Origin: Methanotrichaceae archaeon
GTDB taxonomy: Archaea; Halobacteriota; Methanosarcinia; Methanotrichales; Methanotrichaceae
Assembly (NCBI GenBank): GCA_013329455.1
Contig: DUKF01000248.1
Coordinates: 3,783 to 26,362 of the forward strand
Length of the DNA stretch: 22,580 nucleotides
Direction: 5' to 3'
Positions 543 to 18,322 of this stretch are shown here, piece by piece; positions within the stretch are counted from its first letter, which is position 1, and every line of letters starts with the position of its first letter. A program made the translations under genes and the position numbers. The notes below the pieces were generated by a model. The model ran no database searches and was not told the origin of the DNA. It saw only the letters and a program-made list of their open reading frames with translations.

Positions 543-552
543 ATGGCCCCTG

Positions 553-1276: not shown

Positions 1277-2353
1277 CTACCCGATCCGTTCGATCTTCAG
1301 CCCGACGTTATCGACCTTTGTAGATATCGCGACCTTCAGGCCCATCGGCGCGAGGAGTTTTGTCATCTCCTCCTCGGTCCGCTCGGTGACGACGGCGATC
1401 GACGGTCCGACAGAGCTCATCCCGACGAACTCAAGGCCCGCCTCCCGAAGGCTGTTCATATGCTGGTATATCTCAAAGCCGTGGTGCTCCACCTCGGCCC
1501 GCTTCGATCCCCGAAACTCGATCTCCCAGATGACGTCTCCAATCTTACGAAGGTCTTCCCGCTCAAGGGCCGGGATCAGGTCCATCAAAAGAAAATAGGC
1601 CTTAAGCTCTCTGTCTTGGTAGTCGAGGTTTCGGGCCCTGTTCATCAGAAGGTCGAACTCCTCTCTGCCAGAGGATGAGACGGAGCTCTCGGGGATGATT
1701 ACAAAGACGTTCTTTCCTTCCGCGAACTCGTGGTGGTAGGCGAGCGCCAGCTCGTCGCCCATCACCGCCATCCCGCCGTAGGTCACGGCGGCAGGTCCAA
1801 CACCGGTCTCAAAGCCGAGGGTGACCCTGCCGTCCTCGGTCTCCTCGACGTAGTTGTTTCCGATCAAAAGGCGGATCTCTTCTCTCGTCAGGGGTGAGCC
1901 GACCGCCTCGTTCATGGCGTGGCCCAGGGCCACGAGGACTGAGCCCGTGGACCCAAGGCCCACGTGCTTTTGCTCGTGGTCCCTGACCTTGATCTTGAAG
2001 CCGCCATCGTAGCCGACCGTCTTTTTGAATACTTCGACGAAATGGCGGATGATCGGCTCTCTGGAATAGTCGACGACTGTCTTGTCGGGGGTGCACTCCA
2101 CCTCGGCAAAGCAGCGGATCTGGAGGGCAAAGCCCACACCGCCGCCGCCGGGCCTGTTCGGAGCAAAGCGGTTCATGTCAAGGACGGTGAGATGGATCCT
2201 CCCCGGGGTTGTCGCCCTGACCATTCCCTCGATCGGTGTAAGGTAGCGGGACTTTTCGATCTCCAGGGTGTTGACGTTCTCGCCCGGGGAGAAGGGGTTG
2301 AACTCGTACTCCACTAGGTCCAGGTCCCCACCGCGGATCTTCATCGTGGGCAT
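1277..2353 (-). CDS. GHMP-family kinase, beta-RFAP synthase-like
   Basis: The protein shows GHMP-superfamily features: a PGRIHLTVLDM beta-strand region near residue 50, a Gly-rich PGGGGVGFAL segment, and the phosphate-binding loop HVGLGSTGSVLVALGHA near residue 130. A later GMSSVGPSIAVV strand near the C-terminus fits the fold. The combination RIHLT.(I/L)DM and the helix YFLLMDLIPALEREDL resembles archaeal beta-ribofuranosylaminobenzene 5'-phosphate synthase (COG1907). That enzyme condenses p-hydroxybenzoate or p-aminobenzoate with PRPP for methanopterin synthesis. It lacks the usual compact N-terminus: about 45 residues precede the first GHMP strand, so it may be a paralogue with another substrate. 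AGGAGG at 2365-2370 lies only 2 nt from ATG 2362 but 11 nt from ATG 2353, so 2353 is preferred; 2362 remains possible. Confidence 0.7.
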   Translation of the reverse strand: MPTMKIRGGDLDLVEYEFNPFSPGENVNTLEIEKSRYLTPIEGMVRATTPGRIHLTVLDMNRFAPNRPGGGGVGFALQIRCFAEVECTPDKTVVDYSREPIIRHFVEVFKKTVGYDGGFKIKVRDHEQKHVGLGSTGSVLVALGHAMNEAVGSPLTREEIRLLIGNNYVEETEDGRVTLGFETGVGPAAVTYGGMAVMGDELALAYHHEFAEGKNVFVIIPESSVSSSGREEFDLLMNRARNLDYQDRELKAYFLLMDLIPALEREDLRKIGDVIWEIEFRGSKRAEVEHHGFEIYQHMNSLREAGLEFVGMSSVGPSIAVVTERTEEEMTKLLAPMGLKVAISTKVDNVGLKIERIG

Positions 2354-2599
2354 ATCTTGCATTTCCTCCTATCTTTTCGTCCCTCCGAACGAGGGCTCAT
2401 TTTTCTTGCCACACTTTCCTGACCCTCGCCCGTAGCCGTCTTCAGAGATAAGGTCGCCTCCTCGAGCCATGGATGCCACCCCTGCGCCGAGAGCGCTACG
2501 GACTCCGACGCATCGCCCTTCCAGAACATTGGTATCACATTTGACTCCTCGCCGTTTTGCAGATTGAATAAATATCAAACTCAGTGGGCAAAATTGTAT

Positions 2600-3619
2600 T
2601 CAACACTGCTGTGTATCTCTGAGAATTTCATAAGCTTTCAGAGCCTCGTTGTTGGCACTACTTGCCTTTTTCAGGTTTTCTTCTTTATCCCTCAATTTGG
2701 ATAGATCGTAGTATGCAACCCCGAGTTTGTTCTGAGTCGCAGCGTAATCGTACGGGTACTTATCGAAGGTGAAGACTTTCAGAGCCTCGTTGTAAGCCTC
2801 AATCGCCCTGTTCAAGTTTTCTTCTCCGTTCCTGACCTCGGCGAGGTCATAGTATGCAACTGCGAGGTTGTGTTGGGTTGCAGCGTAATCGTATGGGTAC
2901 TTATCGAAAGTGCGGACTTTCAGAGCCTCGTTGTAAGCCTCAATCGCCCTGTCCAGATTTGCTTCTCTGTCCCCGACTTCAGCGAGGTCATAGTGTGCAA
3001 CCCCAAGGTCGTTCTGGGTCGCAGCGTATTCATATGGGTACTTATCGAAAGTGCGGACTTTCAGAGCCTCATTGTAAGCCTCAGTCGCCCTGTCCAGATT
3101 TGCTTCTCTGTCCCTGACCTCGGCGAGGCGCCTGCAGGCAATCCCTAAGCTGTTCTGGGTTGCAGCGTAATCGTATGGGTGCCCATCGATGGTAAAGATT
3201 TTCAGAGCCTCATTGTAAGACTCGATTGTCATATTCAGGTTTTCTTCCTCTTCCCTGATCTCGGCGAGGTACCTATAGGCAATACCAAGATTGTTCTGGG
3301 TCGCAGCGTAATTGTATGAGTTCTCATCGATGGTAAAGATTTTCAGAGCTTCGTTGTAGGCCTCAATCGCCCTGTCCAGGTTTGTTTCTCTGTCCTTTAC
3401 CTTGGATAGCTCGTAATAAGCTACACCCAGATCAAATTTAGCGTTTGCGTATTCGCCGGGCGAACGGGTTAGCGACAGATTTGCCAACTGGAATTCGTAC
3501 TCGGCAATATCTTCTTCGTAATCTAAATACTCTTCAGCACCTACAATCCCCGAGAAAGTTGATATAAGTACTAAAAATATTAATATTCCATAGAAGCTTT
3601 TCGCACGCAAAAATGCCAT
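2600..3619 (-). CDS. Exported protein of tandem 47-residue TPR-like repeats
   Basis: An N-terminal signal sequence (positively charged MAFLRAK, then hydrophobic FYGILIFLVLISTFSGIVGA) is followed by about six tandem repeats of 47 residues. Each has the pattern (N)xLGxAYYxLAEVRDxExNLxRAIEAYNEALK followed by a linker such as VRTFDKYPYDYAATQ. The AY..LAE and AIEAYNEALK helices are characteristic of tetratricopeptide repeats, here with an extended linker. TPRs usually mediate protein binding, so this is probably an extracytoplasmic scaffold; the partner is unknown. The last repeat diverges (KKASSANNEALKAYEIL). The start at 3619 is supported by AGAGG 7 nt upstream. The repeat units are nearly identical at DNA level, which implies recent expansion. 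No neighbour on the same strand is close enough to form an obvious operon. Confidence 0.8.
   Translation of the reverse strand: MAFLRAKSFYGILIFLVLISTFSGIVGAEEYLDYEEDIAEYEFQLANLSLTRSPGEYANAKFDLGVAYYELSKVKDRETNLDRAIEAYNEALKIFTIDENSYNYAATQNNLGIAYRYLAEIREEEENLNMTIESYNEALKIFTIDGHPYDYAATQNSLGIACRRLAEVRDREANLDRATEAYNEALKVRTFDKYPYEYAATQNDLGVAHYDLAEVGDREANLDRAIEAYNEALKVRTFDKYPYDYAATQHNLAVAYYDLAEVRNGEENLNRAIEAYNEALKVFTFDKYPYDYAATQNKLGVAYYDLSKLRDKEENLKKASSANNEALKAYEILRDTQQC
2734..3440 (-). repeat. 141-bp tandem repeat array inside the TPR gene
   Basis: The segment containing GCAGCGTAaTCgTAtGGGTACTTATCGAa recurs with a constant period of 141 bp, with copies near 2738, 2879, 3020, 3161 and 3302. Each unit encodes one 47-residue repeat. 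The copies near 2879 and 3020 are the most alike. Confidence 0.75.
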
Positions 3620-4009
3620 CTTACAACCTCTTAGTGCAGCTGTTCCTCTACACTACTGGCTAAATGTAGACTAGTGCTTAATATATTTTATCCTCTACAG
3701 ACTTTTCGAAACCTTATTCGAGGCGGTATGCAGAATGTGATGTAAAAATATGATTTTCCAGACCCACTGAAAAATGATCTATAAGTTTAAGGATGGCTAC
3801 CCAAGCCTTCTTTGGATCCCATGAGATGGCAGCTGTAGCAATAACAGCATATAATCTCATTCTACTGGGAAACCAGGTTGACTGAACGTCTGTTAATATT
3901 AAAATTATGTCCCGGCCGTGAACTGGCAAATCATCGTTTGTTACAGCTTCGTTTGTTACAGCCCGGCCACGGTTGATCGCGAAACACCTGGTAAGTCTCA
4001 CTTACTCTT
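3620..4009. other. Gene-poor interval
   Basis: I see no convincing gene. A minus-strand open frame at 3714-4001 has no recognisable domain, no Shine-Dalgarno and poor composition. The interval contains AT-rich DNA upstream of the TPR gene (3660-3700), a probable promoter region for that gene. It also holds a perfect two-copy 14-bp tandem direct repeat (TCGTTTGTTACAGC at 3934 and 3949). Confidence 0.5.
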
Positions 4010-4510
4010 TCACGTCCAAACCGAAAATATCTCGAGTTCTCCCGAATCCGTGGGAGTCGTCAGGAAGCTCACCGCAAGATACGCCACCGTTCCGAGGATG
4101 AGGCCGACGGCAACCAGGTGTATCGTGGGATTGCCGTAGAAGTTCCTGGCCACAATGGCGACGAAGGAGTAGGGGAGGCGTCGGCTCCGGGAGGGGGTGG
4201 GCAGATGTCGTTCAGTATTCTGGATGCGGCAAGTCTCGATGGGAACGGCCTCAGAAGGAATAAAGGATGAAGATCGCCTTCGTGTTTGGCCTTTTTCCCC
4301 TGCTCGTGGAGTTGAGCGCGAGAAGGGAGGGGCTCATGGTCAGGAGGAATATTATCGAGGTGACCAGGATCATCGATCTTCCGTTCCCCGTCCAAAGGAT
4401 TCATCTGTTGAAGTGTGGGCAGAGAAGGCTAAAAAGGGTTAGATGTGGTCACCACAAACCGAGTCGATTGCGGCAGGATCTTGGAGATTCCATCGAGGCA
4501 GCGTTGTTGT
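4010..4510 (-). pseudogene. Decayed sodium:solute symporter (C-terminal remnant)
   Basis: On the minus strand, 4010-4177 encodes SFVAIVARNFYGNPTIH then LVAVGLILGTVAYLAVSFLT and stops at 4010-4012. This aligns without gaps to the C-terminal helix region of the intact symporter at 6274-7704 (ASIVLWHFYANSMIHPVMIG, LVVGTVAYVGVSMFTQP). Upstream homology continues weakly in other frames: GRSMILVTSIIFLLTMSPSL near 4315-4385 resembles DDRVLILTRVVGVLIIAISA, and FVVTTS near 4440-4458 resembles VLVTTT. The spacing between these islands roughly matches the intact gene (about 238 versus 228 nt). Stops and frame changes interrupt it, so it cannot make a transporter. The 4010-4177 part is secure; the rest is tentative. 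Confidence 0.65.
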
Positions 4511-4544
4511 GCAGGCCTTATCGGGACGAGTTAAAGGGATCGAT

Positions 4545-4964
4545 TCAGATATTTTTGATCCCCGTCGCCTTTCTCCTCACCAAATCCATCAAACCATCGA
4601 GGGTGCGACATTCGTTGATCTCCTCGGCGGTGATGAAAAGGTCGAGGTCAGAGCCTCTCTTGACGAAGGCTGCCGGATATTTCGCATTTATCTGAGGATA
4701 TAGCTTCAAAAATTCGTCTTTGTGCAGGAACTCCACAGGCGTGTCCAGGCCTGAGATGAGGCCCTTCCACTCCCTTTTCATCCCCATGTTGCCGTAAGTG
4801 AGCCCACACAGATTACACTCGTAGGTCTCTGGCGCAACGATTTTTTGGACGTAATCCTTGGCCGTGCTCAGAATGCCGCTGTCTGCATTGTAGACGAAGA
4901 TGATCGACGCATCTTTCGCTACATACTTTTTCTCTTCCGGACCGTCTCCTCGATCAGGGGGCAT
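4545..4964 (-). CDS. Small conserved CxxC protein, function unknown
   Basis: The encoded protein is about 139 residues with SIIFVYNADSGILSTAKDY, then YECNLCGLTYGNMGMKREWK and a PVEFLHKDEFLKLYP segment. I recognise this as a family of short conserved hypothetical proteins in bacteria and archaea, often with VFVYNADSG...KI.(S/A)P.TY.C.LC.LTYG...M..EWK, but no function is established to my knowledge. The C-N-L-C pair could bind metal or be redox active (inference). The protein is soluble with no signal peptide. The start is not well fixed: ATG 4964 has no visible Shine-Dalgarno. Immediately upstream lies the octamer cluster at 5011-5057. The symporter remnant lies directly downstream. Confidence 0.7.
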   Translation of the reverse strand: MPPDRGDGPEEKKYVAKDASIIFVYNADSGILSTAKDYVQKIVAPETYECNLCGLTYGNMGMKREWKGLISGLDTPVEFLHKDEFLKLYPQINAKYPAAFVKRGSDLDLFITAEEINECRTLDGLMDLVRRKATGIKNI

Positions 4965-5010
4965 TGTATGAAATAATCTTGTATGATACTAGTCGTTTAT
5001 CCCCGATTGT

Positions 5011-5057
5011 GGCCAATTGGTCAAGTGGCGTGGTCAATTGGTCAATTTGTCAATTGG
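5011..5057. repeat. Cluster of five GGTCAATT-like octamers
   Basis: Reading the plus strand, the units are GGCCAATT, GGTCAAGT, a 5-nt gap (GGCGT), then GGTCAATT, GGTCAATT, TGTCAATT and a final GG. The units sit on an 8-bp period within each block. The cluster lies 47-93 bp upstream of the CxxC gene start and just past the 3' end of the prenyltransferase gene, so an operator for the former is possible. Confidence 0.6.
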
Positions 5058-5073
5058 ACTCGAATGGGCACCC

Positions 5074-5961
5074 TCATAAGAGCACGCCCAAAAGGTAAGC
5101 GACGCAGCCCCACTGCATCGTCAGGAATGTCCACTTCTTCAACCTGAATATCCTCTCTCTCGACTGATCCTTCATCAGCCCCTTCGAGATGAGGGCGTAG
5201 GAGGCCACGGGCACGAGGATCATTAGGAGAAACAGGCGGTCTCCATAAAGCCTGGGGTCGATCATCGCGAAGAAGGGGAGGGGGTCGAGCACCATTATCA
5301 GGCCGTAGAGAAGAACCGACGCCTCTGCAGCTCTTCTCACGCCGAACCTGGTGGGGAAGGTATCGATCCCCAGGGCTCGGTCACCCTCAACGTCGCCGAT
5401 GTCCAGCATGATCTCGAATGCCACGACGACGATGAAGCCCATCATGGCGAAGTAAAGGATCAGGGGTTCGAGCACGGCATCGGAGATGAGCGAACCGAGA
5501 AAGACCGTGGCCACATACGAATAGGCGATCAGGACGTTCTTGAGCAGGATCAACCTCTTCAGGCCCAGGCTGTAGAGGACGAAAAGGGGGGTGCTCACCA
5601 GAACCAGGAATTGGGCAATCGGATTCAGAAACGACGATAGGAGAAGGGCAAAAGTGTAGGAGACCAGCGCCGTCAAGAGGGCGGCCCTTCTGGGAAGCGA
5701 CCCCGTGACCAGGGGCCGGTCGAGCCTGGAGTTTTTCATGTCAACTTCGAAGTCACGATAATCGTTGAAGGCGAAGGATCCGGTCGCAACCAGGAAGACG
5801 ATCACGGAGGCGACCAGGTATTCCGGCCCAAAGCCGTCGAGGTCGTTTGAGAGGACCCCGGAGAGTGGAACTCCCAGGGCTATGAAGAAGGAATAGTCCA
5901 GCCTGATCATCCCAGAAAAAGATTTGACGATATTTGCCGTCATCATCTTGCCAGCACCCAT
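5074..5961 (-). CDS. UbiA-family prenyltransferase
   Basis: This is an integral membrane enzyme with about nine hydrophobic helices. The two Asp-rich motifs of the UbiA superfamily are present: FNDYRDFEVDMKNSRLDRP near residues 65-83 and LDIGDVEGDRALGIDTFPTR near residues 188-208. These bind the Mg-diphosphate of a prenyl donor. The second motif followed by FGVRRA resembles archaeal digeranylgeranylglyceryl phosphate synthases of ether-lipid synthesis. A role in methanophenazine or another isoprenoid is equally possible; the acceptor cannot be read from sequence. Candidate starts are GTG 5967, ATG 5961 and ATG 5946/5943. A TTTAA-containing TATA-like element near 5983-5992 would put the transcript start close to 5961, suggesting a leaderless message, so 5961 is used. 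The length of about 295 residues is normal for the family. Confidence 0.85.
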   Translation of the reverse strand: MGAGKMMTANIVKSFSGMIRLDYSFFIALGVPLSGVLSNDLDGFGPEYLVASVIVFLVATGSFAFNDYRDFEVDMKNSRLDRPLVTGSLPRRAALLTALVSYTFALLLSSFLNPIAQFLVLVSTPLFVLYSLGLKRLILLKNVLIAYSYVATVFLGSLISDAVLEPLILYFAMMGFIVVVAFEIMLDIGDVEGDRALGIDTFPTRFGVRRAAEASVLLYGLIMVLDPLPFFAMIDPRLYGDRLFLLMILVPVASYALISKGLMKDQSRERIFRLKKWTFLTMQWGCVAYLLGVLL

Positions 5962-5967
5962 GATCAC

Positions 5968-6273
5968 AGATCGGGATGGATCGGTTAAACTTTTTTCCGA
6001 GTTTGGAGCTTAATCTCGGTTTCGAAGTACCGTCCCATTATAGACGTCGTCTTCCCGGCCGAACTGCTCGAACTGCTCAAAGGGAGATCCTCAGTAGCAT
6101 GGAAGCTCGTGGATCGTGCATGCCGCCACATCTCCCCGATAAACCAGATGGTGGCATCTTTGGCCGCTCGGCTTGAGGATCATAGAATCGGGGTCGATCC
6201 CCGGTCTTGTAACTTGTGACCGGGGTTTGAGAGTTGGAGGGCGACATCCTCGATTCGCCCCCCCTCTTTCCCT
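5968..6273. other. Intergenic region between prenyltransferase and symporter
   Basis: No gene is supported. A plus-strand frame without any ATG, GTG or TTG near its beginning is open from about 5986 to 6215, but I recognise no family. The interval contains the prenyltransferase promoter region (AT-rich 5983-5992) and the hairpins at 6189-6225 downstream of the symporter. Confidence 0.5.
6189..6225 (-). terminator. GC-rich hairpin(s) after the symporter gene
   Basis: CCCCGGTC at 6199-6206 and GACCGGGG at 6218-6225 form a perfect 8-bp stem with an 11-nt loop. CGGGG at 6189-6193 can instead pair with CCCCG at 6199-6203. The two pairings share CCCCG and are mutually exclusive. The location, about 50 nt past the symporter stop, fits a transcript 3' end or stability element; there is no long T tract. 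Confidence 0.4.
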
Positions 6274-7704
6274 TTACTTCTGTCTCCCCTCAGGTTGGGG
6301 CGACTGAAGAAGGGTTGAAGGCTGGGTAAACATGCTGACGCCCACGTAGGCGACCGTCCCGACGACGAGTCCGATCATCACCGGGTGTATCATGGAGTTT
6401 GCGTAGAAGTGCCAGAGGACTATCGAGGCGAAGGTGGCGACGAGTCCCGAGACAAATCCCTTCGAGGTCCCACGATCCCAGTAGAGGCCGAATATCAGAG
6501 GAATGAAGACGCAGCATGCGATCACCCCCATGCTCAGGGAGACGAGCGGCACTATCAGCTCCGGGACGTTTCGGGCCATCAGCGCAGAGATTGCGATGAT
6601 CAGAACCCCCACGACCCTCGTCAGAATGAGGACCCGGTCGTCGGGTATCTCCGGACGCAGGAACCGGAGGGTGTCTGCGGTGAGGGCGGTGGTCGTCACC
6701 AAAACTATGGCGCTGATCGTTGACATCGCCGCAGATATCGCCGCCAGAAGGATGATCGCATCAAAGCCCGGCGGAAGGAGCGATGTGGCAACGAAAGGTA
6801 TGAGGGTGTCGGGGCTCTTGATGAAAGGCGCAAGCTCCTCTGGGCTGAAGACACCGTAAGCGAGAATCCCGATCGAGAAGATACAAAATGCATATATCGA
6901 GATCGCAAGCGGACCGTAGATTCCGGCGAACCGGACCACCCGTTTGTCTTTCGCAGAGAAGATCATGATGAGGAGGTCTGGAAGCGCAAGAAGACCGAGG
7001 CTTATCGAGAAGGCCGTTCCCACCGTCTTCTGCCAGGGAACGAGGTCTCCGCTCATGCTGGTGACGGCCGCGGGGATGTTCGCCCAGATCTCGGTTCCGC
7101 CGCCGTTGTAGAGGAGGGTCGCGTAGAGGAGGATCGCTCCACCGACCATTATGATCCCCTGGATGAAGCTGATCCAGAGGATGGCGGGTAGACCCCCTAT
7201 GGCGTAGTAGATCGTTACGATTACGACAGCGATCAGGAGGCCCTGGACGTAGGGGATCCCGAGCAGTCCCTCGAAGAGGTGGGCGCACCCCTTGAAGATC
7301 GCGATCAGGTAGACGGTGTACATCACAAGCATTATCATCGCCAGGAGGATCCTGCCACTCGGCGATCCGTACCTTCGCTCCAGAAGCTGGGGCACGGTCT
7401 TGGCGTCGTAGGATTTCGCCATCGCCCAGATCCGGGGCGCGATCAGCCAGGCGATGCAGGCGAAGGCGACGTGCATGAAGGTCGCCCAGATTACCCAGGG
7501 AAAGCCGGCGATGAGGCCGTACCCGCCACCGCCGAGGAACGAGGCCGCGCTGAAGTAGGCGGCGGTGAAGGCGATCCCGATCACGGCAGGGTACATGATG
7601 TTGCGGTCAGAGATGACGAATCCCGAAAAGGTTCCCTGCCGGAGCTTTATCGATAGGATCACGATGACGGCAACGTAAGCCACGAGGAGGATCTGGTTAA
7701 GCAT
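6274..7704 (-). CDS. Sodium:solute symporter (SSS family)
   Basis: This 476-residue protein has about 13 transmembrane helices and the look of the SSF/SSS family (Na+-coupled uptake). Features include SDRNIMYPAVIGIAFTAAYF followed by SAASFLGGGGYGLIAGFPWV near residues 30-70, YYAIGGLPAILWISFIQGII near 165-185, and AAISAAMSTISAIVLVTTTA near 320-340. The substrate cannot be deduced; acetate or another organic anion is conceivable in an aceticlastic methanogen, but that is inference. GAGGAG lies 5 nt before ATG 7704. Its first 8 nt overlap the end of the 32-residue accessory gene, so the two are translationally coupled. A decayed paralogue fragment lies about 1.8 kb away (4010-4510). The C-terminus ends in a short polar tail. 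Confidence 0.9.
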   Translation of the reverse strand: MLNQILLVAYVAVIVILSIKLRQGTFSGFVISDRNIMYPAVIGIAFTAAYFSAASFLGGGGYGLIAGFPWVIWATFMHVAFACIAWLIAPRIWAMAKSYDAKTVPQLLERRYGSPSGRILLAMIMLVMYTVYLIAIFKGCAHLFEGLLGIPYVQGLLIAVVIVTIYYAIGGLPAILWISFIQGIIMVGGAILLYATLLYNGGGTEIWANIPAAVTSMSGDLVPWQKTVGTAFSISLGLLALPDLLIMIFSAKDKRVVRFAGIYGPLAISIYAFCIFSIGILAYGVFSPEELAPFIKSPDTLIPFVATSLLPPGFDAIILLAAISAAMSTISAIVLVTTTALTADTLRFLRPEIPDDRVLILTRVVGVLIIAISALMARNVPELIVPLVSLSMGVIACCVFIPLIFGLYWDRGTSKGFVSGLVATFASIVLWHFYANSMIHPVMIGLVVGTVAYVGVSMFTQPSTLLQSPQPEGRQK

Positions 7705-7795
7705 CGGATCTCCTCAAAATTATAAAGAAGGTTACGGCAAGCATAATTATTATCGAGGCTATCAGGGCCAGGTATGGCGTCGGCGCAAGAAACAT
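7697..7795 (-). CDS. Symporter small accessory protein (32 aa, one helix)
   Basis: A 32-residue protein, MFLAPTPYLALIASI plus IIMLAVTFFIILRRSDA, is one hydrophobic helix with a basic end. A longer in-frame reading from 7900 exists, but GGAGG at 7804-7808 lies 8 nt before ATG 7795, which makes the short form the better choice. The stop codon overlaps the symporter start by 8 nt (ATGCTTAA). I recall small proteins of this kind annotated as symporter small accessory proteins, encoded directly before SSS transporters in methanogens. It probably sits in the membrane with the transporter; its precise role is unknown. Confidence 0.7.
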   Translation of the reverse strand: MFLAPTPYLALIASIIIMLAVTFFIILRRSDA

Positions 7796-7888
7796 CAGCT
7801 CGGCCTCCGCGTCGGCGTCTTGTGATCGTGCAGTTGCATTGGCGTGTAGTCTGCTGTGTTCAAGGTGATCGTTCCTCCAATCGTGTAC

Positions 7889-7897
7889 TATAATATA
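7889..7897 (-). promoter_or_regulatory. Putative TATA box for the symporter operon
   Basis: Read on the minus strand this is TATATTATA. A transcript start about 25 nt downstream (near 7865) would give a leader of roughly 70 nt before the small accessory gene. Confidence 0.35.
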
Positions 7898-8119
7898 CAA
7901 TGATGCTCGACGGAGGGCGATTTGGGTTGAAAAGGGTTTCGCTGACTTGAAACAGAGTGCGGTTAATAAAATAGGATGCCTTCATTTTTATCACGCTATC
8001 GCGAACTCTGTTGAAGTTATGCCAGCAGCAGTTTGATTTGAAGTCGAATCCCACACAAAAATTTCATAGAAACATTGATAATGCTGACAATCAGATGGCT
8101 CGCTGAATGGTGGTCAAAA

Positions 8120-11100
8120 ATGAGATGTCTTCTGTCCGATCTCGTAGATGATTTATCGGCCTACAATCCTGAAGATATGCTTTTGGCTGTTGCGGGCCTG
8201 CAGCTAATGCCTGAAAATGCGGATAGGACCCTTAGATTAGAAGCCGTTGCTCATGCAGCTGCATCCCTTCCAGAAGACAACAAAAAACCAAACGTTAGTC
8301 TCAGCAAAATTAAAAATATATTGAATACAAAGATACCTCCTTTCCTCACACATGCGGAGGATCCGTTTGAGAATCCGTTTACTGAAGAATTATCATTCAT
8401 TGGAGGATCTTACGTGGTTTTTCCTGGCGCGGCAGTTGAGTCGACTTTTGTCATGCGTCATCTTTTAAAAGCGGTATTTTTCTCACAAGAGTTCTCTAAT
8501 CCGAATTTTATAACTAAAGTCAGAGATCTCATCTCAGCCGTCTTAATATTGAGTGATGAGATTGCTCGTAGGACCGGACTTGAACGGGGAAGCAAACCTC
8601 ATGAAACTAAAGGCCAGAAAGTAATTGTCCCTAAATCCAATGATCTTGCTCACTTGAAGGAAACAGTTTTATTTAAGCAGTGCGATTTGGATCTGCTACT
8701 GAACAAACAAGAAATTCTAATGTTGGGTAGATTGACCCTCCCATTAGGATACGTTAATATTACAAATTATAATGTAGAGAATGGAGATTTGATAATTCAC
8801 CCTATTGTGAAGATAGGCGATAAGTTCATCGTTGCGATTCCAGGAATGCTTCTTTCTGCAGCTAGGAATGAGTTGGTTCGTTTAGCTATAGAGAACGAAG
8901 TTGTAGATGAATTAGCCGAACGATATTGTTTAGCCGTATCAAACACGGCTGCAAAATCACTCGAATATCTAAAAAATAAGTTTTATCCAATAGCACTCCC
9001 TGATCTGCCTGATATCCCCTGTTTCAAAGACGGTTTCTTTACGCTTGATACAGACAAGATTATCTACACGATGATAATCACAGATCCACTAAATAACTAT
9101 GATTTTGAAGATGTTAATGGTGAGTGGCCAAATCATGATCTAGCATCTAAGATCCAGAACAGATTAATATTAATTGAGAACTATATATTTGGTATGGACA
9201 CCGCTCCAAATGAGATTATATTCTTAGTATTGGTTCAAGGTGTGGGTAGGATGATTATATTAGGATTCGGCAGTCCATCCGAGCCATTACTTCCCCATTT
9301 TCTAGAAATGTCTGTGGCAGATTTAGAGACGATTGCTGTATTGGAGGCTGGAGAAAGACTCACTCTTTGGAAGTATGCATGTGCCGCATCGAATGTTAGG
9401 GAAGATACACGAATTATGAATTGTTTCGGGGAATTAAACGAATTCCATCTGTATCGAGAATCTGGGTATAGTTATTATATTAACGACGGACAACGCCCGA
9501 CTGCACTAATGATTTCTCCTGGCAGTGGTGCAGGTGTATTACGTCAAGAGGTAATAAATCGTCTCGATTGCCATGCTGTGCCGTATTATGAGGCAGGTTA
9601 CTACACGGAAGTCGTTGCCTTACATGGGAGTAAAGATATCCCCATTTATATTCAAAAGCATCATTTGGGCGGTTCAGCTCCACAAGTTGCCATTGCTATC
9701 GAAGGGTTACCTTTGATCTTTTGGATTATAGGGCCTAAGTATGGAGATGATGATCAGAGAAGGTTACATGGATTATATGTCCAATTTGCTGATGCCATTG
9801 GTTATTGGTTATGGCAGTTTACGCCTAGCATTCGATCAATGTTGCAGCCACTCCAATCATGCTATACTCGCCTACTTATTAGACTAAATTTGCCATTAGA
9901 TGAAGCTTGGTTTAGGAACAAATTGCGTGATGAAAAATTGGGGGATACGCCGTTTGAGATTAGTTCTGACTCTCCAAATGGGATTATAGATATGAAACTC
10001 CAGCCATCTATAACTTTTTTATTGGGAAATGAAAATAATGGAGGTGAACGACAATTGATGCGGCAAATCTTAATAGCTCTAATGGGATTTCTACCAGATA
10101 ATCTAAGTGTAAATATACCAATTGAAATAATTGATGCTGTAATTGATAAGCACATGCCCTTGGGTATTAAAAAGAAGTTGCTTTTTATTAACAGTGGTGT
10201 CGCACCTGATCTCGATACAAGAGGACTTCCAACTTTTCGTAAATTACAAAAAGCTGATATTAATGAACTCCTTGATGAACTCGGTAATTATCTTTTGTCC
10301 GAGGGACTTAATGTCGGAAAAATCGCTGATGAACAGCGAAAAAATATACTTAATTTTAAGGTTGTCAAATTCTATTACAGAGAATTAGAGCGGCTAATCG
10401 CTTCTCTACAGCAGGAAGGGCTAATAGAATGGTTGATTGCACACCATGAAGCAATTATAAGCAATTTGTCAGTTCATAAATTGACCACTCCTACTCGAAT
10501 AGCATGCCTAGAATCCGAATCAAATATTGTACCGCTTATTCGAAATGAATTTGAAGAAAATACTTCTGCGGCAGTAGCAAGTCGATTCATCATAGAATAT
10601 GTTGTAGCTCGAAACCCTGCTGGTCTGCGGCCAATGAGTTATAGTGTTTATGACCGGCTACAAGCAATCGCCCATCATATAATAAATTTCGGATTCATGT
10701 CCGACCTGATCTATTATGAATTGGCAGACATAAAATTGAATCTACTCCCATCTGGGCGGTTAGGCACTGAAAGAGATCAGTTCGAAAAAGCGCGCGAATC
10801 CTATTTACCTACTTTTTTAGCGGGCGAAGTTGTTCGTCGTACTCGTTTATTTGGGCATTATTGGGGAACTGACAACAGCGTACCCGAAAAAACAGAATTA
10901 GCAAATAGAATTGATGAAGCCGCAAAAATCGAGTTTGGTATATCTATCACAGATCTACTTGATTTGATGACTGAAGCGAGGACGATCGGCCAAGAGATTA
11001 ATCCCGTTGTTGTTTGCTTACCACTGAATGATTTAATTGATTATTTAGAGAAGCAACTTGGATGGCAAAGAAAACGGGTTTCTGACGCTATCGATTTGCT

Positions 11101-11845
11101 GTCTCTTCGTCCGCGTTCTGATTTCTTTGATCCACCCACCCCATACAAAAAAACAGACATATTCCCCTGGCGATTTAATCGATCGCTATCTTACATCCGT
11201 CTGCCTTTCTTGATTCGTAATCATGACGGCACGACGGAAGTTCTATGGGGAAATCGCCATCTTTACGATGCACAACTTAATCTTATTGGGCTATGTACGA
11301 GTGGCCGCCTAAAAGCAAAAAGCACCGAAATGAAACGTGTCTTAAGTGAAATCAACAACGATCGCGGGAGGAAATTTAATGATACTATTATAAATGCATT
11401 TAAAAAGAATTCGGGGTTTATTGTGAAAGCAAATATCAAAAAGATAGGTGCAAAACGTCTACAAGACTCAAATGGGGGCGATTTAGGCGATATCGATATT
11501 CTCGTTGTCAATACGAAAAAAAGACGCTTGAAAATAGTAGAATGTAAAGATTTAGCGCTTGCACGTACACCACACGAAATGAGTATCGAAATTAAGAATC
11601 TCTTCGAGGGAAGTCGTAGTAAAAGGCCGATCGTTGAGCGTCATCAAAGACGTGTAGATTGGATAAGAAAAAATCTAAAAGATGTTTTGGCAAGGTTAGA
11701 TTTAGAATTAGATCATGTTGGCAAATGGAAAATTGAGCTGCTGATAATAGTGAATATAGAGCTAATGACACCCCATATTCGAAAATCACCGATTCGAGTA
11801 TTATCGTTAGCGGAACTGGAAAGGGAGCTGGTGAAACAAAAATAA
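8120..11845 (+). CDS. Giant protein with C-terminal PD-(D/E)XK nuclease-like domain
   Basis: The protein is about 1,241 residues, with no signal peptide, clear membrane helices, or Walker A motif. I do not recognise the first ~1,080 residues; they look globular and mixed alpha/beta, with segments such as FIGGSYVVFPGAAVESTF and LIIHPIVKIGDKFIVAIPG. Near the C-terminus, RGRKFNDTIINAFKK is followed by GGDLGDIDILVVN and RRLKIVECKDL. This gives the D...ExK arrangement of the PD-(D/E)XK nuclease fold, with candidate catalytic Asp1126, Glu1141 and Lys1143. Conserved-looking RTPHEMSIEIKNLFEGSR and RRVDWIRKNL follow. DNA or RNA cleavage in defence or mobile-element conflict is the likely role (inference). 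GGTGG at 8109-8113 lies 6 nt before ATG 8120, so this start is chosen; ATG 8081 or TTG 8075 would add 13-15 residues. The gene is much more AT-rich than both flanks and has no partner gene, which suggests transfer. Confidence 0.8.
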   Translation: MRCLLSDLVDDLSAYNPEDMLLAVAGLQLMPENADRTLRLEAVAHAAASLPEDNKKPNVSLSKIKNILNTKIPPFLTHAEDPFENPFTEELSFIGGSYVVFPGAAVESTFVMRHLLKAVFFSQEFSNPNFITKVRDLISAVLILSDEIARRTGLERGSKPHETKGQKVIVPKSNDLAHLKETVLFKQCDLDLLLNKQEILMLGRLTLPLGYVNITNYNVENGDLIIHPIVKIGDKFIVAIPGMLLSAARNELVRLAIENEVVDELAERYCLAVSNTAAKSLEYLKNKFYPIALPDLPDIPCFKDGFFTLDTDKIIYTMIITDPLNNYDFEDVNGEWPNHDLASKIQNRLILIENYIFGMDTAPNEIIFLVLVQGVGRMIILGFGSPSEPLLPHFLEMSVADLETIAVLEAGERLTLWKYACAASNVREDTRIMNCFGELNEFHLYRESGYSYYINDGQRPTALMISPGSGAGVLRQEVINRLDCHAVPYYEAGYYTEVVALHGSKDIPIYIQKHHLGGSAPQVAIAIEGLPLIFWIIGPKYGDDDQRRLHGLYVQFADAIGYWLWQFTPSIRSMLQPLQSCYTRLLIRLNLPLDEAWFRNKLRDEKLGDTPFEISSDSPNGIIDMKLQPSITFLLGNENNGGERQLMRQILIALMGFLPDNLSVNIPIEIIDAVIDKHMPLGIKKKLLFINSGVAPDLDTRGLPTFRKLQKADINELLDELGNYLLSEGLNVGKIADEQRKNILNFKVVKFYYRELERLIASLQQEGLIEWLIAHHEAIISNLSVHKLTTPTRIACLESESNIVPLIRNEFEENTSAAVASRFIIEYVVARNPAGLRPMSYSVYDRLQAIAHHIINFGFMSDLIYYELADIKLNLLPSGRLGTERDQFEKARESYLPTFLAGEVVRRTRLFGHYWGTDNSVPEKTELANRIDEAAKIEFGISITDLLDLMTEARTIGQEINPVVVCLPLNDLIDYLEKQLGWQRKRVSDAIDLLSLRPRSDFFDPPTPYKKTDIFPWRFNRSLSYIRLPFLIRNHDGTTEVLWGNRHLYDAQLNLIGLCTSGRLKAKSTEMKRVLSEINNDRGRKFNDTIINAFKKNSGFIVKANIKKIGAKRLQDSNGGDLGDIDILVVNTKKRRLKIVECKDLALARTPHEMSIEIKNLFEGSRSKRPIVERHQRRVDWIRKNLKDVLARLDLELDHVGKWKIELLIIVNIELMTPHIRKSPIRVLSLAELERELVKQK
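11200..11845 (+). other. PD-(D/E)XK-like domain region of the giant gene
   Basis: This sub-region encodes the nuclease-like core. The candidate catalytic Asp codon is at 11495, Glu at 11540 and Lys at 11546. A preceding helix (RGRKFNDTI) lacks the Glu often found in Mrr-type enzymes, so the fold assignment needs structural confirmation. Confidence 0.6.
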
Positions 11846-12076
11846 TATTGAAGGTTACATCTGGTCATAAAAACAGAAAACGAATGAAAGACATCCACTT
11901 ACCTTAAATTTAGCCTCGGACTCTCAGAATGCTTCACCGGCATAGGCAGCTGCTTCTATGGCTTCGGATTCCTGCGTGATACACTTGGATGAAAATCTCA
12001 GCTACGACTGAAGTGTTATGATCTGGGCTGATGACCTGAAAACGCCACCTTGAATCATAAATCCCGCCCGAGGATC

Positions 12077-12628
<552 letters not shown>

Positions 12629-13450
12629 TCAATCGCAGATCCTGCACCTTTCGGGATCCGCCTCTGTCCCCTCGTCTCCCAAGTAGAGGACCTGGTCCCG
12701 ACACCCGTACCGGTAGACTGTGGTACCCTTGCACCCGAGCTCGTGGGAAAGTGTGAAGACGCCGAGAACGTCCTCGACCGTCGCCCCGTTGGGCAGGTTC
12801 ACGGTCTTTGAGACGGCGTTGTCGGTGAACTTTTGGAAGGCCGCCTGGATCTTGACGTGCTGGGCGGGCGCGACCTCCATCGCAGTGACGAACAGGTCCC
12901 GCAGATCGTCGGGGATGCCTTCGACGCCCTCCAGGGTCCCTTTCCTCGCGACCTCTCTCATCAGAGACTCGCTGCGGACGCCCCTCTCCTTTGCCATCCT
13001 CTCGAATAGAGGGCTCATCTCGACCATCTTCTCGCCGAGGAGGTCGCGGGCAAAGCAGAGGGCGAAGAGCGGCTCGATCCCGGGGCTAGTCCCGGCGATG
13101 ATGCTGATCGTGCCCGTCGGCGAGATGGTGGTGACCGTGGCGTTCCTCATGGAGTCGTACCCGAGGCTGCTCTCGTCGAGGAGGGGAAAGGACCCCCGCT
13201 CCTGGCCGAGGTGGCCCGACTCATCCCGCGCTGTACTGGTGACGAAGCTCATCACCTGCTCGGCGAGTCGGATCGCCTCCCCGGAGTTGTAAGAGACTCC
13301 CATCTCGATCAGCATCTCGGCAAACCCCATCACTCCGAGGCCGATCTTCCGGCTCTTGAGGGTCGCCTCCCTGATCTTTCGGAGAGGAAAGCGGTTCACC
13401 TGAACGACGTCGTCCAGGAACCTGACCGCAAGGCGCACGGCCTCCTCCAG
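12629..13450 (-). pseudogene. nrdJ: Class II ribonucleotide reductase NrdJ, C-terminal frame
   Basis: This is the second half of an adenosylcobalamin-dependent ribonucleotide reductase, in a different frame from the first half. It begins with PLEEAVRLAVRFLDDVVQVN. It continues with LGVMGFAEMLIEMG, then the catalytic-barrel loop TISPTGTISIIAGTSPGIEP, and the QAAFQKFTDNAVSKTVNLPN stretch typical of NrdJ. It ends with CRDQ...CRICD; the terminal C-x-x-C matches the redox pair that re-reduces the active site in this class. The open frame extends back to 13513, but the first ~20 residues of that extension are out-of-frame sequence, and there is no credible start or Shine-Dalgarno. It is read here as one gene with the fragment upstream. 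If the frameshift is a sequence error, the enzyme is intact at about 609 residues. Confidence 0.85.
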
Positions 13451-14457
13451 CGGTCCCACTCGACCTCGCCCCGCTCGACGAACCGAGAGAGGTTCAACGA
13501 GCCGAGGTTGCAAGACTCGAAAGGAAGGAGCGGCTGCTCACCGCAGGGGTTCGTCGCCTCGATGATCCCTGGCAGGGGGTGGCCCTCGTTTATCCTGTCC
13601 AGGAAGAGGACGCCGGGGTCGCCCCGACTCCAGGCGTTGGCGGCGATCTCCATCAAAAGATCGCGGGCCTCGACGGTTTTCCTGACCTCGCCGCTCCTCG
13701 GGTTGACGAGATCAAACTCCTCTCTCAAGCGAGCTTTTCTCATCAGATCATCACCGATCCCCACCGAGAGGTTGAAGTTCTGAAGCCTGCCCGGCTTCTC
13801 TTTGGCGCGGACGAACTCTCGGATGTCGGGATGGTCGGCCCGCAGTACCGCCATGTTGGCCCCCCGTCTCCTGCCGCCCTGCTTTATCACCTCGGTTGCG
13901 GCGTCGAATACCTCCATGAAGGAGACAGGGCCGCTGGCTACGCCCCCCGTCGCCCTGACAGGATCTCCCTTCGGCCGAAGCCTCGAAAAAGAAAAGCCCG
14001 TCCCTCCGCCACTCTGGTGGATCTTGGCCATGTCCTTGAGGGCCCCGAAGATCCCATCCATCGAGTCCTCGACCGGCAGGACGAAACATGCTGAGAGCTG
14101 CCCCAGGGAAAGGCCGGCGTTCATGAGGGTCGGCGAGTTGGGGAGGAAAAGGCCCTGACTCATGGCCTCCTTGAACTTCGAGGCGGTGGCTTCACGGTCG
14201 CCGCCGAACCTCGCCTCGGCGCTGGCAACGTGCCTTGCCACCCTGTTGAACATATGGTCGGGATTCTCGGCCACCCTTCCGAGCTCGTCCCGTCTCAGGT
14301 ACCTCTTTCTGAGAAGCTCCGGGGCGTGAGAGCCGAGGCTGGGACTTTCCTGGGGCCGGGGCGCTGATGGCGTACCACCTCCATCATCTCCATCTCCAAC
14401 ATTGCCCCTCCTCTTCTTCGTCTCGTGATTCTCCACTCTCACCACCTTCTCCCCCAT
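13447..14457 (-). pseudogene. nrdJ: Class II ribonucleotide reductase NrdJ, N-terminal frame
   Basis: This is the first half of the B12-dependent enzyme that reduces ribonucleotides to deoxyribonucleotides. Visible motifs in order are LLRKRYLRRDELGRVAENPD, LPNSPTLMNAG, LSACFVLPVEDSMDGIFGAL (with the active-site Cys of the family), HQSGGGTGFSFSRLRPKG, EVIKQGGRRRGANMAVL, and the catalytic NPCGEQPLL near residues 303-311. About the first 45 residues are a charged, Gly-rich extension of low conservation. After FVERGEVEWDR the frame runs into unrelated residues and stops at 13396, while the correct continuation (LEEAVRLAVRF) is one frame away. One lost base near 13448-13452 explains this. A TATA-like TTTATATC at 14493-14501 on this strand gives a short leader. 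Confidence 0.85.
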
Positions 14458-14492
14458 CTTTGATCCGCCTACTCGTCAAGGTCTCCAGAAGC

Positions 14493-14522
14493 GATATAAA
14501 CTGTGATCTTCCCATATATATC
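14493..14522. promoter_or_regulatory. Divergent TATA elements for nrdJ and cooC
   Basis: GATATAAAC at 14493-14501 reads as GTTTATATC on the minus strand, about 36-44 nt before the nrdJ ATG. CATATATATC at 14513-14522 lies 35-44 nt before the cooC start on the plus strand. Both fit archaeal promoter spacing with short leaders. Confidence 0.4.
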
Positions 14523-14544
14523 TGAAGACTGAAGACAACGTCCT

Positions 14545-14550
14545 GGAGGT
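14545..14550 (+). promoter_or_regulatory. Shine-Dalgarno fixing an AUC start for cooC
   Basis: GGAGGT is followed by TTTACA and then ATC AAG ATA GCT ATC. The 6-nt spacing is ideal and points to codon ATC at 14557, the position where homologues have Met in MKIAISGKGGVGKTT. Confidence 0.7.
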
Positions 14551-14556
14551 TTTACA

Positions 14557-15354
14557 ATCAAGATAGCTATCTCTGGAAAAGGAGGCGTCGGCAAGACCAC
14601 CCTCGCCGGAACCCTCGCCCGCCTCTTCGCCCGTGACGGATACAACGTGATAGCGATAGACGCAGACCCGGACATGAATCTCGCCTCGGCCCTGGGCGTC
14701 GCCGAGAACCCAAGGCCGATCACCGACTACAAGGAGATGGTCCAGGAGAGGGCGAGCGCTGAGTTTGGGATGTTCAAGCTCAATCCGAAAGTCGACGACG
14801 TCATCGAGAAGTGCGGCTGCGTCGGGCCCGACGGCGTGAAGCTCGCCGTGATGGGGACGATCGACACCGGCGGAAGCGGCTGCATGTGCCCTGAGACCGC
14901 CTTCCTGAGGGCGCTGCTCAGGCACGTCATCCTGCGGGAGAAGGACCTCGTCATCCTGGACATGGAGGCGGGGATCGAGCACCTCGGCCGTGGGACGACG
15001 AGGGGCGTCGACGTCATGATCGCCGTCGTCGAGCCGGGCCTTCGGTCAGTCGAGACCCTGGAGAGGATCAAGAAGCTCGCCAGCGACCTCGGGATCGAGA
15101 GGGTGATGGCCGTGATCAGCAAGGCTCCCGAAGAGCAGACGATCATCAAGGAGAAGCTGGCGGAGATGAACGTTCCCGTCCTCGGGACGATACCCTACGA
15201 CAGGAACCTGATGGATGCAGACTTGACGGGCAAGTCGCCCCTGGACGTGGGCGGGCCGGGCGTCGAGGGGATAAAGGAGATCAAGGTGAAGCTCGAGGAG
15301 CTCTTCGGGGCCATGGCGAAAGAGGCGGCGGAGAAAGGCGAGAAGGCCTCTTAG
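14557..15354 (+). CDS. cooC: CooC-type CO dehydrogenase maturation ATPase
   Basis: This is a MinD/ParA-like P-loop ATPase that helps insert nickel into CO dehydrogenase, central to acetate and CO metabolism in methanogens. The deviant Walker A KGGVGKTT lies near residues 8-15, IAIDADPDMNLASALG near 31-46, and IDTGGSGCMCPETAFLRALL near 105-124. The C-x-C is the nickel-binding, dimer-interface motif of CooC. VILDMEAGIEHLGRGT near 131-146 is the Walker B region. The 265-residue length is normal. No ATG, GTG or TTG lies between the upstream in-frame stop (14530-14532) and the P-loop; the first ATG is 14647, inside the fold. The Shine-Dalgarno at 14545 selects ATC 14557 as the start. No CODH gene is in the window. 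A sequencing error (ATG to ATC) is possible. Confidence 0.85.
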   Translation: MKIAISGKGGVGKTTLAGTLARLFARDGYNVIAIDADPDMNLASALGVAENPRPITDYKEMVQERASAEFGMFKLNPKVDDVIEKCGCVGPDGVKLAVMGTIDTGGSGCMCPETAFLRALLRHVILREKDLVILDMEAGIEHLGRGTTRGVDVMIAVVEPGLRSVETLERIKKLASDLGIERVMAVISKAPEEQTIIKEKLAEMNVPVLGTIPYDRNLMDADLTGKSPLDVGGPGVEGIKEIKVKLEELFGAMAKEAAEKGEKAS

Positions 15355-15406
15355 GCCGCCTTGGGCCTCTTCGTCTACTCTTTTATGTCTGGGCCACAGG
15401 CTTTGA

Positions 15407-15590
15407 TCAGGTCTGGCTCCTGGCGGCTCCAGCCCTCTTTGAGGCGTTGAGGAAGGTCATCCCCACCACCTCACCTTTCTCGCGCCTGATTATGACGTTG
15501 TCTTTGGCGAGTTCGGAGTCGTCGGCGTGGCTCGGCTACTATCGACCTGGCGTTGGCCTCGGCATGATCTGATAATATCCCCTCGACACA
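15407..15590 (-). pseudogene. Broken DUF2283-family gene
   Basis: On the minus strand, HADDSELAKDNVIIRREKGE followed by VVGMTFLNASKR and a short tail ends at the stop 15407-15409. This matches the second half of DUF2283 proteins (ADDSEL...I.R...GEVVG.T.LNASKR). The expected first half, EGILSDHAEANARSIVAEP, lies immediately upstream in another frame and parallels the family pattern ILYDREADVLYISFGEP. Two in-frame TAG codons (15536-15541) block the second frame, so a frameshift near 15530 broke the gene. DUF2283 proteins are small (~70 residues) and often serve as antitoxins beside DUF4258 toxins; no toxin is seen here. Confidence 0.6.
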
Positions 15591-15593
15591 ATC

Positions 15594-15601
15594 TTTAATA
15601 A
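15594..15601 (+). promoter_or_regulatory. TATA box for the DUF7557-like gene
   Basis: TTTAATAA lies about 27-30 nt before the ATA that begins the conserved protein sequence. This is the normal TATA-to-start-site distance in archaea, so the transcript would begin at or next to that codon (leaderless). Confidence 0.4.
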
Positions 15602-15625
15602 TCTTCGACCCAACTTTGTACTTCT

Positions 15626-15820
15626 ATAAGTACCGCCATTCAGGTCGATGACGCTGTTAAAAACAGGCTCCAGCTCTTCGGCCACGAGGGCGAATCTTAC
15701 GACGACATCCTCAATCGGTTGATTGATTCCCTTGAGGATCTGGATGTCGAAGAGATCATCGAAGCCAGATGGTTGAAGCTCCAGAAGGAGAAGAAGGACT
15801 ACATCTCTCTAGAAGATTGA
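15626..15820 (+). CDS. DUF7557-like antitoxin-type protein, non-AUG start
   Basis: The frame encodes 64 residues: (M)STAIQVDDAVKNRLQLFGHEG, then ESYDDILNRLIDSLEDLD, then EIIEARWLKLQKEKKDYISLED. The N-terminal strand STAIQVDDAVKNRL, the GHEGESYDDILNRLID helix pair, and the charged helical tail match small archaeal VapB/RelB-like ribbon-helix-helix proteins now called DUF7557. These usually act as antitoxins that bind DNA as dimers. The only codon at the expected Met position is ATA (15626-15628). The upstream in-frame stop is TAA at 15599, and there is no ATG, GTG or TTG in between. It may start at AUA on a leaderless message, be a recently killed gene, or carry a sequence error. No toxin gene follows. 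Confidence 0.6.
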   Translation: MSTAIQVDDAVKNRLQLFGHEGESYDDILNRLIDSLEDLDVEEIIEARWLKLQKEKKDYISLED

Positions 15821-15851
15821 CGAGAGCGGAGATAAAGGGGTTTTCAGGAAA

Positions 15852-15909
15852 GGTTTGAGGTGGCTCGGGGACGAATCCCTACTCTCCTGAGGGATCAGAC
15901 CCTCAAACC
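15852..15909. terminator. Long hairpin between convergent genes
   Basis: GGTTTGAGG at 15852-15860 is perfectly complementary to CCTCAAACC at 15901-15909, enclosing about 40 nt that can form further small stems (GGGA..TCCC). It lies between the ends of the DUF7557-like gene and purM, consistent with a bidirectional transcript end. Confidence 0.4.
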
Positions 15910-15932
15910 CCAGCACTCCCCTGGCGTCGCCC

Positions 15933-16925
15933 TTATTTCAGCTCCATATCCCCGAGCCTAAGGCCCGAATCCGTGATCTCGCCCACGAGCTTGCCGTCGG
16001 TCATCTTGAGGACCTTGTCCACGTCGTCCTCCGGCAGGACGAAGACCCATCCCATCCCCATGTTGAAGGTCCTGTACATCTCATCCTCGTCGACCCCGCC
16101 CTCCTCCTGAAGGAAGCGGAATATCGGCTGGGGCTCGATCGGATCGTCGATCTCAAAGCCGAATCCGGAGATCCGATGAAGCTTCAATAGGCCGCTTCCG
16201 GTGATGTGAGCCATCCCGTGAACGTCGCACTCGTTTATTACTTCGAGCGCCTCCATGTAGATCCTCGTCGGCTCGAGAAGCTCCTCGCCGATCGTCTTCT
16301 TCGAGTAGGGCATTTGGTCGAAGTAAGTGTACTCCGACTCCTCAACGATCTTTCTTGCGAGTGAGAAGCCGTTGCTGTGCAGGCCACTACTTGGAAGCCC
16401 CACGATCACGTCGCCCTTCTTTATCTTCTCGCCGGTGATGACGTCCTTTTTCTTGATCATCCCGATGCAGGTTCCCGCGAGATCAAAGCCCTTTATGATC
16501 TCGGGCAAAGAGGCCGTCTCGCCTCCGACGATGCTGATGTTCGAGATCTCAGCCCCTCTCTCAAGGCCCACGGCGATCTGGGCGGTCATCTCCGGATCGA
16601 CCTTCTCAAGGGCGAGGTAGTCGACGAAAGCGAGGGGTTCAGCGCCGATGGCGAGCAGGTCGTTGACGTTCATCGCCATGCAGTCGATCCCGACCGTATC
16701 CCACTTCCTCATGGCGTTTGCGATCAGGACTTTGCTTCCGACGCCGTCTGTGGCCATGGCGATGGCAAACTCGCCCATGTCGATGAGGCCTGCGTAATGG
16801 CCGATGTCGGTAATCGGAGCGCCGATCCCTTTCCTCTTGCCGGTCATCACGCTCTTCATGGCAGAGATCGCCTTCTCCTCCGCCCGTATATCGACGCCCG
16901 ACTGGGCGTAAGTGAGCTTCTTCAT
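15933..16925 (-). CDS. purM: AIR synthase (phosphoribosylformylglycinamidine cyclo-ligase)
   Basis: This is the fifth step of purine synthesis: ATP-dependent ring closure of FGAM to aminoimidazole ribotide in the cytosol. The 330-residue protein begins [19 protein letters not shown]. It has [18 protein letters not shown] near residues 55-73, [21 protein letters not shown] near 80-100, [14 protein letters not shown] near 132-145, and [18 protein letters not shown] near 176-193. These are the hallmark ATP- and FGAM-binding motifs of PurM, and the length is normal. Its ATG overlaps the aspartate kinase stop in ATGA (16922-16925). GGAGAGGTGAAG within the kinase end serves as the ribosome site, so translation is coupled. 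Confidence 0.93.
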
Positions 16926-18322
16926 CTCTTCACCTCTCCTTCAAGTCCGAACTCTCGATGCAGCTCCTGGATCGTCCTCTCAGCCTCCGTCATGCTCACG
17001 ACGAAGGAGATGTTGTGCTCGCTGGACCCCTGGCTGATCATGACGACGTTGATCCTCGATTTGCCCATCGCTCCAAATACCCTTCCGGCAACTCCGGGAG
17101 TTCCCGCCATCCCGGATCCGATGACGGCGATCACGGAGACGTCCCTGTTGTGGGAGATTTCCCTCACGATCGTCGTTGGAAACTCGGCCCCGAGGGCGAT
17201 CTCGGCGGCTTCGAGCTGGGGCTCGTCGACGACGATCGATATGTTCGCCTCGCTGGACCCCTGGCTGATCATGGTTATGTTCACTCCGGCGTTGGCCAGA
17301 GCCGAAAAGGCCCTTGCGGCGATTCCTGGAGTTCCTATCATCCCAGCACCCGATATCGTCAGTAGGGCGACGTTCTTTGAGAGGGTGACCGCCTTTATGA
17401 TCCCCTCTTTGGTCACGTCCTCCTTCACTATCAAGGTGCCGGGGTCCTGGGGGTCGAAGGTGCACTTCACCCGGACGGGAATTCCTTTCCTGATGGCAGG
17501 CTCGATCGCTCTTGGATGGAGGACCTTCGCCCCGAAGTAGGACATCTCCATCGCCTCTCTATAAGAGATGACGGGAATGTTCTTCGCCTCGGAGACGATC
17601 CTCGGGTCGGTGGTGAGAACCCCTGTCGTATCCTTCCAGAACCAGATCTCGTCTGCTCCGATGGCAGCTCCGATGATCGAGGCCGAGAAGTCAGAACCGC
17701 CCCTTCCGAGGGTGGTGATGTTCCCCCTCTCGTCCTCGGCTATGAACCCGGTCACCACCGGGACGCCCTCGATGGGGGTCAGCCTCTCGGCGAGAAGGTC
17801 GTCGGTCTTCTCGAGGGGCTTTCCGTTCCCGTAATCGCTGGTGGTGATGATCCCTGCCTCGCCACCTGTGTAGTATCTGGACTTAAGGCCGAGGTCCCTC
17901 AGGACTCCGGAGAGGAGCGGGGCTGCCAGCCTCTCGCCGTAGCTGGATATCCTATCGATCGACCTTGGGGAAAGCTCACCCAAATAGCAGATGCCGATGT
18001 AGGCCTTCTCCAGCTCGCTGACCCTCTTGATGATGGTCCCTTTCAGCTCTTTTACGATCGCAGGGTCCTTGACCGCTTCCATCAGGGCCTGGATATGCTT
18101 CTTGCTCAGCCTGTCCACGAAGGTCACTATCTCCTCGACCTTGCCGCCGTTGGCCGAGTTCCTGGCGCACTGGAGAAGGTCGTCGGTGACCCCTCCCAGG
18201 GCAGAGGTCACAACGACGATCTCGTTCTCCTCGCTCAGACCGTTCACAAGCTCTCCAACGTTTCGAAGCTTCGCCCCGTCGGCCACCGAGGATCCGCCAA
18301 ACTTCATTACCAAGCGTGCCAT
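16922..18322 (-). CDS. lysC: Aspartate kinase with two ACT domains
   Basis: This enzyme phosphorylates aspartate, the first step to lysine, threonine and methionine, and in methanogens also feeds the aspartate-semialdehyde route to aromatic precursors. The 466-residue protein starts with the [10 protein letters not shown] motif (residues 7-16). It has [20 protein letters not shown] near 200-220 and a [11 protein letters not shown] substrate region near 235-245. Two C-terminal ACT domains follow: [20 protein letters not shown] and [20 protein letters not shown], each followed by [20 protein letters not shown] or [20 protein letters not shown] sequence. ACT domains suggest feedback by an amino acid, probably lysine or threonine. 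No strong Shine-Dalgarno precedes ATG 18322. TTATATC near 18354-18361 (read on this strand) would give a very short leader. Confidence 0.93.

Follow-up and report, generated by a model that had tools for sequence, protein, structure and literature searches.

Upx, a bacterial anti-phage nuclease system made of one protein, is said to have been first demonstrated by Gao and others in 2020. A table in PMC10855318 places Upx with nuclease systems under the heading 'experimentally validated or predicted mechanism', and PMC12629846 locates it almost only at one hotspot of PAGI-1 islands. Our literature search, covering few subscription papers or preprints, returned passing mentions only of Upx and no paper on archaeal Upx, on the solved Upx structure (PDB 9wuf) or mentioning the family PF28173. 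Here we describe a gene at positions 8120..11845 (+) of a 22,580-nucleotide stretch (the window) from a Methanotrichaceae archaeon, and we consider it very likely that this gene encodes a full-length, divergent one-protein antivirus system of the Upx family, horizontally acquired into an accessory slot beside ribC.

The window protein was matched to Upx by PADLOC (E 1.6e-33) and to Upx_antiphage (NF042954) by NCBIfam (E 3.3e-46, 157.1 bits); a match to NF040499 (E 0.023) was dismissed as chance. Scans against PHROGs and against a Pfam version that does not include PF28173 gave no match to the window protein. A protein search at E <= 1e-3 recovered 128 proteins, and among the 120 listed 119 are non-self, with 31-55% identity; those having a source name are named 'hypothetical protein'. 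The precomputed label PF28173.1 is carried by the window protein, by all 119 relatives among the matches listed, and also by proteins named anti-phage protein Upx (Providencia, Pseudomonas, Paraperlucidibaca and others). The Upx model is matched end to end and in one stretch by an Okeania relative, and a Salmonella fragment reaches 1,469 bits on it across 829 residues. Aligned with hhalign, the window clade (34 rows) and canonical Upx with its near kin (22 rows) share 1,145 columns at a probability of 100. The window protein matches 9wuf as a single sequence (2.4e-19), and the profile of our alignment A3, whose 115 rows (89 window-side, 14 Upx-like and 12 canonical-side) include the canonical ones, scores 1,126.7 bits against that structure. 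Homology to canonical Upx is thus full-length and colinear, and the model of the window protein has the same overall fold as 9wuf. A preliminary description of the locus had left the N-terminal ~1,080 residues unrecognised, which does not stand, since this part matches solved Upx along its length; its reading of the gene as a single-gene defense system gains sequence support because the family match is to divergent Upx. It had missed that the system was already described and that the N-terminal part holds a second, motif-less restriction-endonuclease-like fold.

The resemblance to canonical Upx (NF042954, PADLOC Upx, 9wuf) extends to length, overall fold, the C-terminal GDxD...ExK site and the use of one protein. 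The C-terminal domain (residues about 1078-1229, the latter being the model end; 11351..11806, +) matches PD-(D/E)XK enzymes in fold, not a non-nuclease fold, as the preliminary description had proposed, with Asp1126 (11495..11497, +), the catalytic-motif Asp, and Glu1141 (11540..11542, +) and Lys1143 (11546..11548, +) of the ExK at the positions it had named. Model strands 1096-1102 and 1107-1114 (offset 29) bear D1126 and E1141/K1143, so that D and (D/E)xK lie on adjacent strands as in the PD-(D/E)XK core fold. G1123, D1124 (11489..11491, +), D1126, E1141 and K1143 do not vary in 115/115 A3 rows, and in a 103-row set that overlaps A3, with many proteins common to both and named genomes added, G1123, D1126, E1141 and K1143 are kept in 103/103 rows and D1124 in 101/103. 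Kept to this degree in both sets of rows, the motif is not a chance occurrence. On the strength of the model, this domain belongs to the PD-(D/E)XK superfamily and is a predicted metal-dependent nuclease. Likeness to Shedu SduA, McrBC, Can2/Card1/Cdn1, Hjc and NucS/EndoMS is limited to the nuclease domain, and their sensor modules differ.

The restriction-endonuclease-like fold near the N-terminus (residues about 107-449; 8438..9466, +) aligns structurally with Nt.BspD6I, FokI, HindIII and EcoT38I at 7-13% identity and, unlike them, shows no conserved ExK: columns 300-326, 336-345 and 362-382 have none in each of the three clades, the third strand being judged from secondary structure only. 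This fold is probably non-catalytic. Fold matches also place a winged-helix-like region before the nuclease (residues about 929-1066; 10904..11317, +), which could possibly contact DNA. By analogy, we take the protein to work like Upx. The sensor body of ~1,050 residues, comprising both of these regions, would recognize invading DNA or an infection cue, and recognition would license DNA cutting by the metal-dependent nuclease at the C-terminus, the DNA being the invader's or, in an abortive response, also the cell's own. An enzyme acting alone in the manner of a restriction endonuclease, whether dependent on a site or on modification, would differ in having no infection-specific trigger, the N-terminal fold reading DNA and the C-terminal nuclease cutting it. 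Such an enzyme is compatible with Upx membership, and Upx itself may work in this way, but the slot offers no second gene able to be a methyltransferase and no ExK is conserved in the inspected columns of the N-terminal fold; we regard it as unlikely.

The divergent Upx-family gene is a single frame with an ATG start, 1,241 codons, a TAA stop and no internal stops in the window's list of open reading frames (ORFs). A TTG start upstream at 8075 would give 1,256 codons, but we favor the ATG at 8120 because the close relatives P0003 and P0004 begin in register there; P0002 starts 4 codons upstream. The gene lies in a variable AT-rich slot (7948..12076), delimited by blastn edges against same-genus stretches and by G+C content (GC), and it is alone there as the preliminary description had it: the rest of the slot has no ORF of at least 80 codons in the window's list, and three other-frame ORFs of at least 80 codons fall in the gene's interior. 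Its composition also departs from the flanks, as had been noted, with a GC of 0.393 against 0.542 (1-7947) and 0.585 (12077 to the end), and a GC at third codon positions of 0.33 against 0.76-0.86 across eight flanking genes. The gene is real, intact, a divergent member of the Upx family and apparently horizontally acquired.

In blastn searches with the window, conserved DNA has its left edge at 7944-7947 in four same-genus genomes (G001, G002, G003 and G006) and resumes from 12075-12085 in five (G001, G002, G006, G007 and G008); the short left stretch of G007 stops at 7933, nothing matches on the left in G008, and the right contig of G003 terminates within ribC. We rejected a 20-base imperfect repeat (7716-7735 / 11839-11858) as an insertion duplication because its left copy lies beyond the slot edge at 7944-7947 and because the 5.2 kb examined holds 19 direct-repeat families of the same sort. 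Flanking the slot are a sodium/solute symporter (6274..7704, -), with orthologues of 86-91% identity in three of the eight other same-genus genomes, and the archaeal riboflavin synthase gene ribC (12077..12538, -), at whose 3' end the slot starts. The flanking DNA is archaeal chromosome and carries methanogen markers: aEF-2, EF-1 alpha, uS10, purM, aspartate kinase and archaeal riboflavin synthase score over cut-off, and the methanogenesis marker 8 protein, truncated at the window edge, reaches 118.7 of 232.7 bits.

The eight other same-genus genomes contain no match to the window protein, and in two of them the ribC-side slot holds one known and one candidate defense system. In G001 (L121) these are Gabija GajA and GajB (728.6 and 808 bits) and in G002 (L113) PDC-M11A/B, a PADLOC candidate system (544.9 and 163.5 bits); judged by eye from the sequence, the slot ORFs of G007 (L114) start like those of G002. 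In G006 the slot edges are on separate contigs; of the proteins next to them one is lectin-like, one is short and Hint/homing-endonuclease-like (PADLOC HEase, 1.6e-6), and a further ORF there is unmatched. The slot side of G008 has a 269-codon ORF without a match as well as a 1,470-codon ORF. Partial extra copies of ribC occur near the slot in G002 (L113:9469-9815 and L113:15750-16078) and G007 (L114:275-630), as if the end of ribC had been duplicated each time an element joined the slot.

The distribution is sporadic: matches to the window protein are found in 4 of 99 genomes searched (its own included). Across the phylum 11/392 genomes match, and one open full-length frame is present in four (its own, G113, G308 and G506). 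Genome records yielded 72 distinct loci, plasmid records 4 of 72,556 and viral contigs one. That the gene is instead a mobile-element or conflict gene, such as a nuclease that maintains a selfish element, its defense neighbors being incidental, would fit these few open frames, the plasmid and viral occurrences, the low GC and the accessory slot. Yet the slot has no integrase, transposase or replication gene, there being no other ORF of at least 80 codons, canonical members carry the name anti-phage protein Upx, and a search of 50,697 phage records gave no match, so we hold this origin to be quite improbable.

In the phylogeny, the window protein clusters with P0002-P0004 (SH-aLRT 100) within a larger cyanobacterial and acidobacterial set. 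A separate clade (SH-aLRT 100, four rows) unites the other three full-length archaeal proteins with one Chloroflexi protein. As archaeal proteins fall in separate clades with bacterial kin, archaea most likely received upx-family genes from bacteria on more than one occasion, to judge from the sequences. The three archaeal proteins of the separate clade (L108:10005-13931, L125:1465-5298 and L126:1474-5340) have an N-terminal CPCGSGxKxxxCC motif, which we take to be SEC-C and which is missing from the window protein. Other archaeal relatives are interrupted: the G478 gene is in two places (L128 and L135), with residues 9-771 and 770-1236 on two contigs and not near contig ends, and that of G095 (L127 and L134) runs across two neighboring frames with stops inside. 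We note also that in G416, G334 and G105 (L129, L130 and L132) the match covers the C-terminal third or the nuclease part alone, within shorter frames of 695-754 codons. The broken and split relatives would be in keeping with an acquired gene that is decaying or inactive, but the window copy has 1,241 uninterrupted codons, every catalytic residue and a confident fold, which makes such a state extremely improbable.

PF28173 proteins from Nostoc, Okeania, Pyrinomonadaceae, Deinococcus plasmids and others fall, where placed, on the window's side of the tree and are 30-55% identical to the window protein in local alignments of mostly full length; they differ in their bacterial hosts and, in one Pyrinomonadaceae genome (L008), in forming a tandem pair. 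The two genes there (10067-13723 and 13729-17445, with 5 bases between) belong to different clades, and P0034/P0041 and P0061/P0068 are presumed pairs with a matching two-clade pattern. A two-gene version has likely been maintained in evolution.

The homologues are in varied places, and the proximity to defense genes that the preliminary description had proposed to look for is seen for several of them and not for one Deinococcus relative, with no single core-gene context. Two small ORFs lie in the 1.6 kb that separates the G113 relative from an anti-phage operon, in which DUF3780, DUF1156 and phospholipase-D-like proteins score over cut-offs and a DUF499 protein, truncated where the stretch ends, reaches 1,009 of 1,200 bits. 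One Deinococcus plasmid relative has an Avs2-like upstream neighbor. We also compared a near set (the nearest ORF per side within 3 kb; 107 proteins, 63 loci) with a far set (at least 6.5 kb away; 77 proteins, 55 loci), after removing the 10 loci (of 73) where the hit was partial, any ORF shorter than 150 codons and each side on which the closest ORF reached 900 codons. At 1e-15 the near set matched 165 PADLOC models (the 25 listed by 1-2 members each, among them mad2, BrxL, GajA, AbiEi, SEFIR, type I and II restriction and PDC) and the far set 41 (the 25 listed again by 1-2 members each, among them mad3, AbiP2 and other DRT, PDC-S02, WYL and PD_DExK).

Several of these results weigh against an Upx-like defense role. 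Defense families occur among both near and far neighbors, so that the survey does not separate the two, and as its tables count models and not the members with any hit we claim no enrichment; the Deinococcus aetherius relative, on another plasmid than the one with the Avs2-like neighbor, is flanked by metal-resistance, not defense, genes; the scanned slot-edge genes of G006 and G008 are not known defense genes; and the left edge of G003 continues into high-GC genes with no island. The 157.1 bits on NF042954 are far from its equivalog cut-off of 1,900, and in a midpoint-rooted tree a branch of 1.63 changes per column parts 8 canonical or Upx-like rows from the other 52; therefore the trigger or target may differ from that of canonical Upx. 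The window protein, which unlike canonical Upx has an archaeal host and sits in a separate deep clade, is 16-18% identical to the 12 canonical-side A3 rows. It is a member of the wide Upx family (PF28173) and not of the Upx equivalog (NF042954). We raise tentatively the possibility that the non-canonical PF28173 proteins form a separate Upx branch responding to other cues, in which the N-terminal pseudo-nuclease would read DNA and restrain the C-terminal nuclease, in archaea the branch would counter archaeal viruses, and modular evolution of the sensor would account for the tandem pairs, the split genes and the short C-terminal forms.

Two features elsewhere in the window are recorded here. 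The B12-dependent ribonucleotide reductase at 12629-14457 (-) is split over two frames that overlap (13396-14457 and 12629-13513), from either a frameshift or an assembly error, and a lower-GC stretch at 2600-3619 (-) encodes a protein of near-identical repeats, tetratricopeptide-like by eye, whose sole NCBIfam match is weak.

With this gene the Upx family now reaches a methanogenic archaeon and is much broader than the equivalog model that supplies its name. In this archaeal genus Upx, Gabija and a PADLOC candidate interchange in the ribC-side slot, which is a place to seek more archaeal defense genes.
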